Origin: Synechococcales cyanobacterium bin31.maxbin.ball.101 | GTDB taxonomy: Bacteria; Cyanobacteriota; Cyanobacteriia; Leptolyngbyales; Leptolyngbyaceae | Reading direction: 5' to 3' | Assembly (NCBI GenBank): GCA_013298165.1 | Contig: JAAFJU010000001.1 | Coordinates: 1-64,000 of the forward strand | Length of the DNA stretch: 64,000 nt | Part shown: one piece after another, positions 7,708 to 13,259 of the stretch | Numbering within the stretch: position 1 is the first letter of the stretch | How the letters are laid out: each line of letters begins with the position of its first letter | Program-made: the position numbers and the translations under genes | Notes under the pieces: model-generated | Database searches by the model: none | The model's input: only the letters and a program-made list of their open reading frames with translations | Told to the model about the DNA's origin: nothing

Positions 7708-8493
7708 ATGTCGCCCCATATTGCGCGTACGTTTCGCCCCTTCCATCTCAAGCCTGAATTGTCTGCTTCCCAGCAGGAGCCGCTACTGTGGGTCAGCGCC
7801 AGTCCCAATTTGAAATATTTTGACCTGCCGCTCTTGCAGACCTTGAGTCGATCGCATGTTGTGGCCCGATGGGAATACCAGCAGCACTGTGATGAAGCGA
7901 GTTCTCTGGAAGAAGCCGTTAATTTATTGGTAGACTACATCAAGCAAAGCGATCGGCCCATGCATTTAGCAGGCCATGGGATCAGTGGCGTGATGGCCAT
8001 GATGGCCGCCGATCGGGTTCCCCATTTGATCAAAACCTTGAGTCTTTTAGGCGTTGCACCTCAGCCCGCCTTGACCTGGCAAGCTCATTATTATGTGCAG
8101 CGTCTGACATTACCCTGTAGTCAAGCGCGACTTCTGGCACAGCTCTGTCGATCGTTGTTTGCTCCGCAGACCCCGCACTCGGTCCAAACCTTGGTTAAGC
8201 TTTTAACCCGAGATCTGAGTACGTCTCCGTCGCCTCATTCGCTATTTCATATTGCTAAGTTCGACCCAATTCAGCCTCAAGTGCCGCTTCTCGTTTGTAA
8301 TGGAGCCTCAGATTTTGTGATTTCACCCGATGTTGCGGAGCTGTGGCAAGGTTTGGCAAAACCCGGCGATCGGGTTGTCAGCATTCCTGAGGGACAGCAC
8401 TTTTTTCACTATGACTTCTCTGAACAGATTGCTCAGGAAATGACTCAGTTTTGGTCTCAGTCCAGTCCTCTTACCCCGGTTTATGCTCTATGA
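7708..8493 (+). CDS. alpha/beta hydrolase-fold protein with altered nucleophile elbow
   Basis: A 261-aa alpha/beta hydrolase fold protein. The segment HLAGHGISGVMAMMAADR aligns with the usual LVGHSxGG elbow, but the nucleophile position holds Gly instead of Ser; a C-terminal Asp (NGASDFVIS) and His (EGQHFFHYDF) are kept. It may be non-catalytic or use another residue. Its stop codon overlaps the start of the downstream Crp-family gene (ATGA), so the two are probably translationally coupled. The substrate is unknown. Confidence 0.75.
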   Translation: MSPHIARTFRPFHLKPELSASQQEPLLWVSASPNLKYFDLPLLQTLSRSHVVARWEYQQHCDEASSLEEAVNLLVDYIKQSDRPMHLAGHGISGVMAMMAADRVPHLIKTLSLLGVAPQPALTWQAHYYVQRLTLPCSQARLLAQLCRSLFAPQTPHSVQTLVKLLTRDLSTSPSPHSLFHIAKFDPIQPQVPLLVCNGASDFVISPDVAELWQGLAKPGDRVVSIPEGQHFFHYDFSEQIAQEMTQFWSQSSPLTPVYAL

Positions 8494-9116
8494 ACTCTTC
8501 TACTACTATTGAGAATTCATCTCAAACTTCCCAACTTTTAGAATTAAGCTTGTTGCGTGCCCGTAAAACCTTAATGGAAGCCCGATCGTTCAAACGGGGC
8601 GATCGGCTGCCGAATTTGTCTGAAGCTTGGGTTATTCAATCCGGGGTGGTGCGGACTGTGACTTGGGATATGGAGGGGAATGTTGCGGTCTTGGGCTGGT
8701 GGGGGCCTGGGGATTTAATTTATCAACTGCCTCACAAAATTGAGCCTCATCAGTATGAATGTCTAGCGCCCACCGTTCTCACGAAGCTCTACGATTTTCA
8801 TGGGCTTTCCGATTTGTTGATGAAACAAGCCATGAAAATGGAGGAGTTACTGGCGCTCGCCTATTGTCGCAACACGAGCGATCGGCTGTTAAAAATGTTG
8901 GACTGGTTAGCGCATCATTTCGGTCAGCCGTTTAATCATATTTTCGGCGATCGGACCGTAACAGGCCGCTTGATCGATCTGCAAATCACCCATCAACAGC
9001 TTGCCGATTTAGCCGGAACGACCCGAGTGACGGTGACGCGATGTCTCGGTGATTTTGAACGAGAAGGACAAATTTTCCGTTTACGACGTGGCAGGTTCTT
9101 ACTGCCCACAAGATAA
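8490..9116 (+). CDS. Crp/Fnr-family transcriptional regulator
   Basis: A 208-aa regulator with an N-terminal effector-binding beta-roll (residues ~20-120, degenerate, without a clear cyclic-nucleotide phosphate cassette) and a C-terminal winged helix with ITHQQLADLAGTTRVTVTR (~168-190), typical of Crp/NtcA-type DNA binding. I chose the ATG at 8490 because it overlaps the hydrolase stop; earlier in-frame starts lie inside the hydrolase gene. The tight coupling suggests the hydrolase-like protein acts with the regulator, which is inference. It is not NtcA itself as far as can be judged. Confidence 0.88.
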   Translation: MNSSTTIENSSQTSQLLELSLLRARKTLMEARSFKRGDRLPNLSEAWVIQSGVVRTVTWDMEGNVAVLGWWGPGDLIYQLPHKIEPHQYECLAPTVLTKLYDFHGLSDLLMKQAMKMEELLALAYCRNTSDRLLKMLDWLAHHFGQPFNHIFGDRTVTGRLIDLQITHQQLADLAGTTRVTVTRCLGDFEREGQIFRLRRGRFLLPTR

Positions 9117-9144: not shown

Positions 9145-9417
9145 CTAACCGATCGCCTGAATCCATTCTTTGACGGTATATTCGGTCCAGATCCCATGTT
9201 TCCAATAGGGATCGTTTTCGATGAGCGATCGGACCGTCGCTTCATCCTCCGCCTCATAAATCCCAAACACCTGCGTCAAATCTTGGGTTGGACCTAAGGT
9301 GATCAGGACGCCCGATTCTTGCTGCTGTTTGAGTCCGGCGAGGTGAGCGTCTCGATGGGGCGCACGCTTTTCGATGACATTTTCACAGTAAGCGCCGAAG
9401 AGAATGTACTTTGCCAT
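9145..9417 (-). CDS. YciI-like family protein
   Basis: A 90-aa protein of the YciI/YCII family with the typical RAPHRDAHLAGLK (conserved His) and ENDPYWKHGIWTEYTVKEW pattern of the ferredoxin-like dimeric fold. The start is the ATG at 9417 (MAKYILFGAYC); upstream in-frame codons run into a poly-A/T terminator region and are not credible. Biochemical function is mostly unknown, with some relatives having dehydratase or dehalogenase activity. It lies downstream of the terminator of the RPI-repeat gene. Confidence 0.85.
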   Translation of the reverse strand: MAKYILFGAYCENVIEKRAPHRDAHLAGLKQQQESGVLITLGPTQDLTQVFGIYEAEDEATVRSLIENDPYWKHGIWTEYTVKEWIQAIG

Positions 9418-9465
9418 GATGAATCCAGCCCTGAAGAGGCAAACAAAAACAAACAAAAAACAGAC

Positions 9466-9499
9466 AAAAAAATACCCTAGCTGTTGAAAAGCTAGGGTA
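9466..9499 (-). terminator. intrinsic terminator of the RPI-repeat gene
   Basis: TACCCTAGC (9473-9481) and GCTAGGGTA (9491-9499) form a perfect 9-bp stem. On the minus strand it is followed by seven T (9466-9472), then more T-rich sequence. It lies 12 bp beyond the stop of the RPI-repeat gene. Confidence 0.9.
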
Positions 9500-9510
9500 A
9501 ACATGAGGCG

Positions 9511-10443
9511 TTAGTCGAGGTAGCCCATCAAGGATGCGGAGTCAGGATCGATGATGTCATTGCTGAAAATGGGACGATTGCCCATGACTTCTTCAGCACC
9601 CAAAAGACCTGCAGGGCTGACCATGATAGGACGACCGCCAAAGGCTGCGTCGGGAATGTAGGCAATCTCTGTAGCGAAGATAGGACGATCGCCGGGAAGA
9701 ATTTCAAACAATTTTAAGCTGGACGCTTCGATCGGACGACCATTTAAGTAGGTTCCGAAAACAGCCATCGTTGCGGCACCGATCGGACGCTCACCCGCCG
9801 AAGAAATCGTTCCAACCACTGTCAGGTCACTGGGCATCACGGGACGAACAGGCAATGCGGAACCTGTCTTGGCGATCGCGCTTTCTTTTTTAGCAAGAGG
9901 AGCGGATTTTTCAGTTTCTTGGGTCATGGTCTTATCTCCTTTGGGACGCTGAACAGATGATTTTGGATTTGAAACTTTGGATTTACTTCGAGGCGTACTG
10001 ACCGCCGCTGCTTTAGCGGAGATCTCCGCCAAGATAGGACTGGTCGATTCAGGTACAGCAGGGACAACGTTTTGAGAAACATCTGGAACGCTGTCAAGAA
10101 TCACCATAGTCTCAGCACTAGCCTGGGATTCAAAAGGCGCTGAAACCTCTTCAGCCTCTAGAATTTCCTCGGGCGCTGAAACCTCTGCAATCAGGTTCAG
10201 ATCATCAACGATCAGCGCAGGCTCAAAGTCTGTAACAATCTCGATGATGGACTCTGGAGCAGTTTCAGTCGCATTCACCGCCGCATCTGTCAGCTCCACC
10301 TCTGCCGAAACAGGCGTAACAGCATCAGACGCAACAGGAGAATCTTCAGGCAACGATCGCGCTTGGCTCACCGCTCTAGCCGCTCCAATCCCTGCTTTAC
10401 TCGCACGAGGTGAAGCGGTTCGATTTTTTCGATTTGCAGCCAT
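9511..10443 (-). CDS. conserved cyanobacterial protein with six RPI repeats (function unknown)
   Basis: A 310-aa protein in two parts. Residues 1-~172: a basic start (MAANRKNRTASPRAS) then a long acidic, Ala/Ser/Glu-rich disordered stretch. Residues ~190-310: six units of 17-21 residues, each opening Arg-Pro-(Ile/Val) and usually ending in Gly (RPVMPSDLTVVG, RPIGAATMAVFG, RPIEASSLKLFE, RPIFATEIAYIP, RPIMVSPAGLLG, RPIFSNDIIDPD), closing LMGYLD. An in-frame ATG at 9927 (MTQETEKSAPLAKK) is preceded by AAAGGAG eight bases upstream, whereas the ATG at 10443 has only GGGG, so a 138-aa product with just the repeats is likely made too. It follows prk by 117 bp. I recall similar uncharacterised proteins in other cyanobacteria. 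Confidence 0.75.
   Translation of the reverse strand: MAANRKNRTASPRASKAGIGAARAVSQARSLPEDSPVASDAVTPVSAEVELTDAAVNATETAPESIIEIVTDFEPALIVDDLNLIAEVSAPEEILEAEEVSAPFESQASAETMVILDSVPDVSQNVVPAVPESTSPILAEISAKAAAVSTPRSKSKVSNPKSSVQRPKGDKTMTQETEKSAPLAKKESAIAKTGSALPVRPVMPSDLTVVGTISSAGERPIGAATMAVFGTYLNGRPIEASSLKLFEILPGDRPIFATEIAYIPDAAFGGRPIMVSPAGLLGAEEVMGNRPIFSNDIIDPDSASLMGYLD
9935..9941 (-). promoter_or_regulatory. strong internal Shine-Dalgarno in the RPI-repeat gene
   Basis: On the minus strand AAAGGAG is followed by ATAAGACC and the ATG at 9927. The spacing is ideal, and it sits exactly at the border between the disordered N-terminus and the repeat domain, so it probably decides a start for a short product. 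Confidence 0.65.
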
Positions 10444-10560: not shown

Positions 10561-11562
10561 CTAGACGGCAACTGCAACTCTAGCCGCACCCTTCGTCAGA
10601 CGCTCATAGACGCCACGCATCTTCACGCCTGTTAAGACTTGGAAGAGTCCCGTTCCATTGTTAGAACCGGGATATTCGCGGTGCTGAAGCAGGAGTTCGG
10701 TGATTTCGCCGGGATGACGAGCGGAGGTCTGGCTCAGATGCTTCTCGATGTAGATGACTTCTTCGAGCTTATCGAATTGTCCATCGACTTCAAGAATGGA
10801 AACGCTGTGACCATAGTAGGTGTCCGGGCCATAGTGCATCCGGATACCAGGGTAGGAACAGGTGAGTTGACGTCCGCAAGGGATCCAGTCGATCGTCGAA
10901 CCTTCATCAAAGATATGGACTGGATCAAGACCTTCCACGCCATCGCGCTGAATCATCTGAACCCGAAGAACCTTACGATCCTTGTCGTCTTTGATCAAAT
11001 TGGTGGTCAAGACGCGAATCACAACGTCTGCATGGGCCTTCTGAGGATCGATAAAGGCATCGAAGTCAGGCTTACGGGAATTAATCGCCTGCATGACATC
11101 GTCTAGCGTATGACCGCGCTCAGACATGTCACGTTGGATTTTCCAAGCGGCTTTCACATCATCTTCAATATCTAGATAGACACTGAAATCCAGCAACGAT
11201 CGCACACGTTCATCAAACAAAGGATGCAGTCCTTCAATCACCACAATGTGATTCGGATCGACATTCTCAGGCGGATCAAGTTCCCCAGTCTCATGGTTAT
11301 AGATTGGCTTCATGATGCTCTTACCCGCTTTGATATCGCGGATTTGCTCATACATCAAGTCAAAATTGTTCGCACGAGGGTCAAGGGCGGTAATTCCGGT
11401 CTCTTTACGCTGCTTGCGATCCAGACAGTGATAGTCGTCAAGGCAGATCACCGTTACAAAACTTTCGCCGAACAGATCGGTGATCCGGCGCAAAAATGTG
11501 GACTTACCGCAGCCGGAATCTCCAGCAACGCCAATGAGTACCACACGGTCTGGCTTAGTCAT
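10561..11562 (-). CDS. prk: phosphoribulokinase
   Basis: Phosphorylates ribulose-5-phosphate to ribulose-1,5-bisphosphate in the Calvin-Benson cycle. The 333-aa protein has the P-loop GVAGDSGCGKST, whose Cys18 pairs with Cys40 (VICLDDYHC) as the thioredoxin-regulated site, and a C-terminal Cys pair in IPCGRQLTCSYPG, the region involved in CP12/GAPDH complex regulation. The ATG at 11562 follows GAGGGG by four bases. It is divergent from petH across a 518-bp region and is followed by the RPI-repeat gene. All residues expected for an active, light-regulated enzyme are present. Confidence 0.97.
   Translation of the reverse strand: MTKPDRVVLIGVAGDSGCGKSTFLRRITDLFGESFVTVICLDDYHCLDRKQRKETGITALDPRANNFDLMYEQIRDIKAGKSIMKPIYNHETGELDPPENVDPNHIVVIEGLHPLFDERVRSLLDFSVYLDIEDDVKAAWKIQRDMSERGHTLDDVMQAINSRKPDFDAFIDPQKAHADVVIRVLTTNLIKDDKDRKVLRVQMIQRDGVEGLDPVHIFDEGSTIDWIPCGRQLTCSYPGIRMHYGPDTYYGHSVSILEVDGQFDKLEEVIYIEKHLSQTSARHPGEITELLLQHREYPGSNNGTGLFQVLTGVKMRGVYERLTKGAARVAVAV

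Positions 11563-13259
<1,697 letters not shown>

Follow-up and report, generated by a model that had tools for sequence, protein, structure and literature searches.

Among the described proteins, the closest counterparts of the gene analysed here belong to the carboxysome and the Calvin cycle. CsoS2, which occurs in isoforms, is long and disordered, has multivalent repeats, and ends in a conserved C-terminus. CcmN carries an encapsulation peptide, CP12 is a small disordered protein with cysteine pairs, and CcmM is made in two lengths from one gene, the short form of which arises by internal translation. The presence of two forms of CcmM has been noted previously (PMC5853843). McdB binds carboxysomes via a D-rich C-terminus that contains an aromatic residue: alpha-McdB ends in R(V/I)WPD, beta-McdB has an invariant tryptophan among aspartates, one of the last five residues is Y or F in McdB-like proteins from other microcompartments, and the McdB variant W152Y is functional in S. 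elongatus (PMC11321042). The McdAB system is present in beta-cyanobacteria and absent in alpha-cyanobacteria (PMC8262871).

In the window, i.e., the whole 64,000-nucleotide stretch of cyanobacterial DNA that was analysed, a gene on the minus strand encodes a protein with repeats that begin with Arg-Pro-Ile (RPI) or Arg-Pro-Val. The features of this locus are as follows.

9511–10443, minus strand: long form of the RPI-repeat protein, from the ATG at 10443 to the stop codon at 9511 (310 aa), consisting of a basic/acidic/basic disordered N-terminal region, six repeats, and a C-terminal tail
9511–9927, minus strand: putative short form (138 aa) with all the repeats and the tail, from an internal ATG at 9927 with a strong Shine-Dalgarno sequence, GGAG
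9514–9846, minus strand: six RP[IV] repeats, with units starting at 9846, 9789, 9738, 9687, 9633, and 9576
9514–9591, minus strand: C-terminal module RPIFSN..IDPDSASLMGYLD, together with the residues that immediately precede it; its end is the near-invariant LMG[YF][LI]D-COOH
9473–9499, minus strand: intrinsic-terminator-like hairpin with a 10 bp stem and a T run, directly 3' of the stop codon of the repeat gene
10561–11574, minus strand: prk (phosphoribulokinase), co-directional with the repeat gene and upstream of it, with a gap of 117 bp
12081–13259, plus strand: petH (ferredoxin-NADP reductase), divergent from prk, given for context only

A small open reading frame lies just downstream of the repeat gene (9145–9504, minus strand); it resembles the YciI type in our own reading, and its downstream end abuts a gene for a Crp-like regulator (8451–9116).

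The six units of the window protein are RPVMPSDLTVVGTISSAGE, RPIGAATMAVFGTYLNG, RPIEASSLKLFEILPGD, RPIFATEIAYIPDAAFGG, RPIMVSPAGLLGAEEVMGN, and RPIFSNDIIDPDSASLMGYLD, with lengths of 19, 17, 17, 18, 19, and 21 residues, respectively, and the protein ends in LMGYLD followed by the stop codon. This agrees with the earlier note, in which six Arg-Pro-Ile/Val units of 17–21 residues closing with MGYLD had been described. The same note stated that the units usually end in glycine, but only two of the six do so, and the glycine usually precedes the following RP[IV] by one or two residues (GxRPI). When the 138-residue stretch containing the six RP[IV] motifs was shuffled, none of 200,000 shuffles contained six, and the maximum was three. 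Across the family of related proteins (hereafter the RPI family), the period of the repeat is 19 residues, which accounts for 536 of approximately 740 spacings, and the repeats and the tail module have an RPIxAS core in common. The disordered acidic region described before the repeats exists as the middle part of the N-terminal region, where residues 46–150 of the long form contain 22 D/E and one K/R, but the region as a whole is basic-acidic-basic, with seven K/R each in residues 1–45 and 151–172. This N-terminal extension stays in frame in relatives of the same genus (L003–L005). The window protein contains no Cys and no Trp, and of the 163 distinct family members that we collected, only 5 had Cys in the core of the repeats. 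Structure prediction with AlphaFold gave short paired strands, but at low confidence (pLDDT 66 and 60), and comparison of the models with the folds in the PDB yielded no match; therefore, we claim no fold.

The window protein had no match in Pfam, NCBIfam, or the PDB, consistent with the view of the earlier note that it has no assigned function. The other members of the family had only scattered weak matches in Pfam and NCBIfam (MBG_3, Gp5_C, and AIDA-I), which we took as repeat noise. A scan of contigs with the window protein alone as the query gave no matches. Searches of whole cyanobacterial genomes detected the RPI family in 126 of the 144 genomes of good quality, and in none of 15 genomes of family f2. 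One of the f2 genomes, G118, has an alpha-carboxysome operon (csoS1-rbcL-rbcS-csoS2-csoS3-csoS4), and on the basis of this genome, the only one of f2 examined for the operon, f2 is read as a family of alpha-carboxysome cyanobacteria. The members have 4–7 repeats as a rule and up to 12, and include proteins of Nostoc, Fischerella, Microcystis, Microcoleus, Calothrix, and Chlorogloeopsis, together with those of genomes that we take to be Gloeobacter violaceus, Thermosynechococcus vestitus BP-1, and Synechococcus elongatus. The S. elongatus member is presumably Synpcc7942_0130, a tag that we assigned from its neighbours, and among the papers searched none prints the motif or this presumed locus tag. 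The repeat protein is absent in some lineages of the carboxysome type (five of the seven genomes of genus g4, G146, and G078), which indicates that it is not essential everywhere. A viral or mobile origin was rejected, because no match to the family was found in the phage records searched and the only plasmid copies were in Nostocales (Nostoc, Calothrix, and Aulosira).

Two variant groups were also observed. In some genomes of families f1, f23, and f26, a paralogue group (group B; e.g., L032–L034, L036, L037, L063, and L068) has more regular IDGNRPI repeats and a tail of RDYID, RDFID, EDFID, or ADFVD. In the Gloeobacter-like genomes G036, G054, G066, and G087, the protein is long, with as many as 12 repeats (e.g., L050:5976–6833), and has an altered C-terminus from which LMGYLD is missing.

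The internal in-frame ATG at 9927, which was not mentioned in the earlier note, has counterparts in other members of the family. We scored the in-frame ATGs located 8–90 residues before the first repeat, and a Shine-Dalgarno sequence of at least 4 nt preceded 63 of 84 such ATGs vs. 2463 of 10,031 non-start codons of the same stretch, a comparison that carries no formal probability because the sequences are related by descent. An internal ATG with a Shine-Dalgarno sequence was present in 59 of 150 family members. Furthermore, three members (L011, L013, and L020) start solely at the internal position, which supports the internal ATG as a real start. The repeat gene has two conserved start codons, and the protein is predicted to be made from them in a long and a short form. 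This would be a resemblance to CcmM, with its two protein lengths from one gene, just as a short C-terminal peptide with a proposed role in shell docking is a resemblance to CcmN. Unlike CcmM and CcmN, however, the repeat gene is not in the ccmKLMN operon, its peptide is unrelated, and its product has no gamma-carbonic anhydrase or small-subunit-like domains.

The most constant part of the family is the C-terminus, LMG[YF][LI]D followed by the stop codon, within a tail that is acidic and aromatic (consensus RPIASNxIDDxxxLMGYLD-COOH). Of 146 genomes, 103 contained the codon pattern for LMG[YF][LI]D-stop, as a rule in a single copy, and the reversed pattern used as a control was rare. In a larger sample, the pattern was detected in 259 of 303 genomes outside f2, about once per genome, whereas the 2 matches among 87 genomes of f2 are at the level expected by chance. 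The pattern is nearly specific to the RPI family. One match between ccmM and ccmN in G265 (L278) was discarded as a chance occurrence, because it was on the opposite strand and had no long open reading frame.

The extra matches to the tail pattern were mini-proteins of 48–76 aa, in which a single terminal module, RP[IV]A[SDP]N...LMGYLD, follows an N-terminus that varies. A profile of the tail for which 107 repeat proteins were the sole input matched them with E values of 2e-12 to 2e-6, and the best E value in a control of 5500 shuffles was 0.43. In family f27 (G069), the gene order was mini-ccmK-ccmK, and in families f3 (G062), f4 (G049), and f28 (G075), it was mini-PYTT-ccmK-ccmK, with all genes co-directional in each case, so that the mini-protein gene heads a satellite operon of shell genes. 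The shell pair of f27 was identified as BMC by Pfam (PF00936), and the NCBIfam BMC models matched the pairs of f27, f4, and f28. The earlier note suggested a link between the repeat protein and the Calvin cycle; what the mini-proteins support is a link to CO2 fixation, through the tail that they carry upstream of shell genes in four unrelated families.

PYTT is our own label for an unannotated gene of approximately 195 aa whose product starts with M-x-YTT and has no match in Pfam or NCBIfam. It lies directly before the ccmK pair in f3, f4, f13, and f28 (L292–L318; e.g., L296:1501–2088 and L287:658–1245), and in f13 it does so without a mini-protein gene. In the Gloeomargarita-like family f16, the mini-protein gene and PYTT are adjacent without ccmK. 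PYTT is possibly another carboxysome-related gene.

The surroundings of the genes in the other families were mixed. Mini-protein genes were found beside a gshA-like gene (f23), hemH (f19), and a recQ-like gene (one f28 copy), and the long gene faces uvrB in Nostoc, Fischerella, Microcystis, and Microcoleus, follows menD in f7, f11, f12, and f17, and adjoins menB, petA, or others elsewhere. We considered the neighbourhood (uvrB, menD, or prk) clade-specific and uninformative about what the long form does. These mixed neighbourhoods, of both the long forms and some mini-proteins, are what would be expected if the protein were a disordered or beta-rich repeat protein of a general kind, with a tail for some other conserved cyanobacterial target, as a protease adaptor or thylakoid factor might have, the association with ccmK being coincidental. 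We regard this as unlikely, since a mini-protein gene heads a ccmK pair in four independent families, which is hard to obtain by chance, and both the tail and the family are nearly absent from the f2 genomes.

The tail is rich in D, has Y or F as its third-last residue, and ends in D. This make-up is the same as that of the C-terminal motif of McdB, with MG[YF][LI]D-COOH in the RPI family and R(V/I)WPD-COOH in alpha-McdB. The two proteins also resemble each other in their disordered N-termini of low complexity and in their beta-cyanobacterial distribution. In f16, LMG[YF]LD also ends a protein of 89–108 aa encoded by a gene that overlaps the 3' end of a gene for a ParA-type ATPase (PF13614 at 7e-50), so that the tail sits, as in McdAB, on a protein encoded directly after ParA. 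The tail profile matched this ParA partner only weakly (E 9e-4 and 0.035), but its last six residues are identical to those of the family. The rest of the partner is ribbon-helix-helix-like in our own reading and has no Pfam match. Such pairs were found in Gloeomargarita-like genomes (L285:4737–5875, L235, L237, and L239), and they are possibly an unrecognised carboxysome-positioning pair. Taken together, the McdB-like make-up of the tail and its presence in ccmK operons and on the ParA partner suggest that it is a carboxysome-docking tail.

These similarities also raise the question of whether the repeat protein is itself an adaptor of the McdB type, whose charged, disordered N-terminus would contact either the nucleoid or an ATPase of the ParA type and whose tail would contact the carboxysome, thereby spacing carboxysomes. 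The acidic aromatic C-terminus (IDD..LMGYLD), the same tail on the ParA partner of the Gloeomargarita-like genomes, the charged N-terminus, and the occurrence of McdAB in beta- but not alpha-cyanobacteria would all suit such a role. However, among the loci examined, ParA was present only in the four f16 loci, beside the tail-bearing partner, and never beside the repeat gene; the repeat protein has no invariant tryptophan, its short form would not include the charged N-terminus, and RPI repeats are missing from the descriptions of McdB. This role is therefore quite unlikely in our estimation.

The earlier note reported the repeat gene as lying 117 bp downstream of prk on the same strand, and the coordinates agree; the arrangement with prk and petH recurs in several relatives. 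In the window's family, the main repeat copy adjoins prk in all 31 judgeable genomes, which represent approximately 17 genera; of the other genomes in this family, two are split by contig ends, the copy in G015 is unlinked, and the seven genomes of genus g4 have no main copy. All 31 distinct prk-repeat loci are co-directional, with gaps of 107–645 nt. Outside the window's family, no prk was found within 50 kb of a repeat copy in the sampled genomes, which were compared by eye. The argument from adjacency to prk holds within the window's family, but across the RPI family as a whole the homologues are largely scattered without such a link. The adjacency is real and has long been kept, but it is lineage-specific.

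Nevertheless, within this lineage the repeat protein could be a partner of the Calvin cycle that binds PRK, perhaps in the PRK-CP12-GAPDH complex, with its gene cotranscribed with prk and the tail on the ccmK side as a secondary use. In addition to the conserved position, no terminator-like site was found on the minus strand between the two genes of the window, and the hairpin, another feature missing from the earlier note, follows the repeat gene; in 8 of the 31 loci, terminator-like sites lie after the repeat gene. The repeat gene may thus be cotranscribed with prk. In S. elongatus, darkness induces puncta of PRK (PMC11804935), which would suit a scaffold, although these puncta were reported without mention of the repeat protein. 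On the other hand, the gaps are as long as 645 nt, terminator-like sites occur between the genes in 4 of the 31 loci, and the protein is present in other families without linkage to prk. The earlier suggestion of a CP12-like redox partner was rejected: the small disordered protein does resemble CP12 in general character, but it has no cysteine pairs or any other Cys and no CP12 match in Pfam, and its linkage to prk is confined to one family. This confinement also speaks against a partner specific to PRK. We consider binding to PRK to be an improbable main function, and it is more probable that the protein serves the compartment in which CO2 is fixed, as a scaffold or adaptor, than that it is a partner of PRK alone.

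The reading that we prefer, to which we assign an even chance, is that the repeat protein is a multivalent scaffold or adaptor associated with the beta-carboxysome, docked by its tail and made in two lengths from two starts. Through its tail, the protein would attach to the carboxysome, with the BMC shell hexamers as the likeliest site, and the preceding repeats, which have the same RPIxAS core as the tail module, would make the contact multivalent. The long form would add the charged N-terminus and the short form would not, so that tethering could vary. Besides the occurrence of the tail, this reading is favoured by the broad distribution of the family and its absence from f2, with an alpha-carboxysome in one f2 genome, and by the adjacency to prk in one family. 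Several observations count against it: no long copy was found beside any ccm gene in the loci examined, some mini-protein genes lie beside unrelated genes, some carboxysome-type lineages do not have the repeat protein, the low-confidence models matched no fold, the tail profile scores the ParA partner weakly, and paralogue group B does not have the exact LMGYLD tail. The main text of the composition work on S. elongatus beta-carboxysomes names no uncharacterised component, which would fit either an outer protein that is held only loosely or the absence of any association.

A more far-reaching proposal, which we put forward tentatively and with a good deal of doubt, is that the RPI family is the beta-carboxysome counterpart of CsoS2, i.e., an overlooked, near-universal multivalent linker in two isoforms whose repeats and LMGYLD tail bind shell hexamers and which either organises carboxysome assembly or connects other enzymes of the Calvin cycle to carboxysomes. 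The tail would then be a portable docking tag that is also used on other proteins, including the Gloeomargarita-like ParA partner. The two families have complementary distributions, as CsoS2 is in the f2 genome examined and the RPI family is outside f2, but their sequences are dissimilar (BLASTP E 11 against the CsoS2 of G118), their repeats differ, and the RPI family has no position in a carboxysome operon.

The catalogue of beta-carboxysome components is regarded as almost complete, and the plans for the transfer of beta-carboxysomes to crops rest on it. The scaffold or adaptor proposed here is a conserved, unannotated protein of nearly all beta-cyanobacteria, and its terminal tag also heads shell-gene operons. 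If the proposal is true, it would add a new component and a portable docking peptide to the parts list of the beta-carboxysome.
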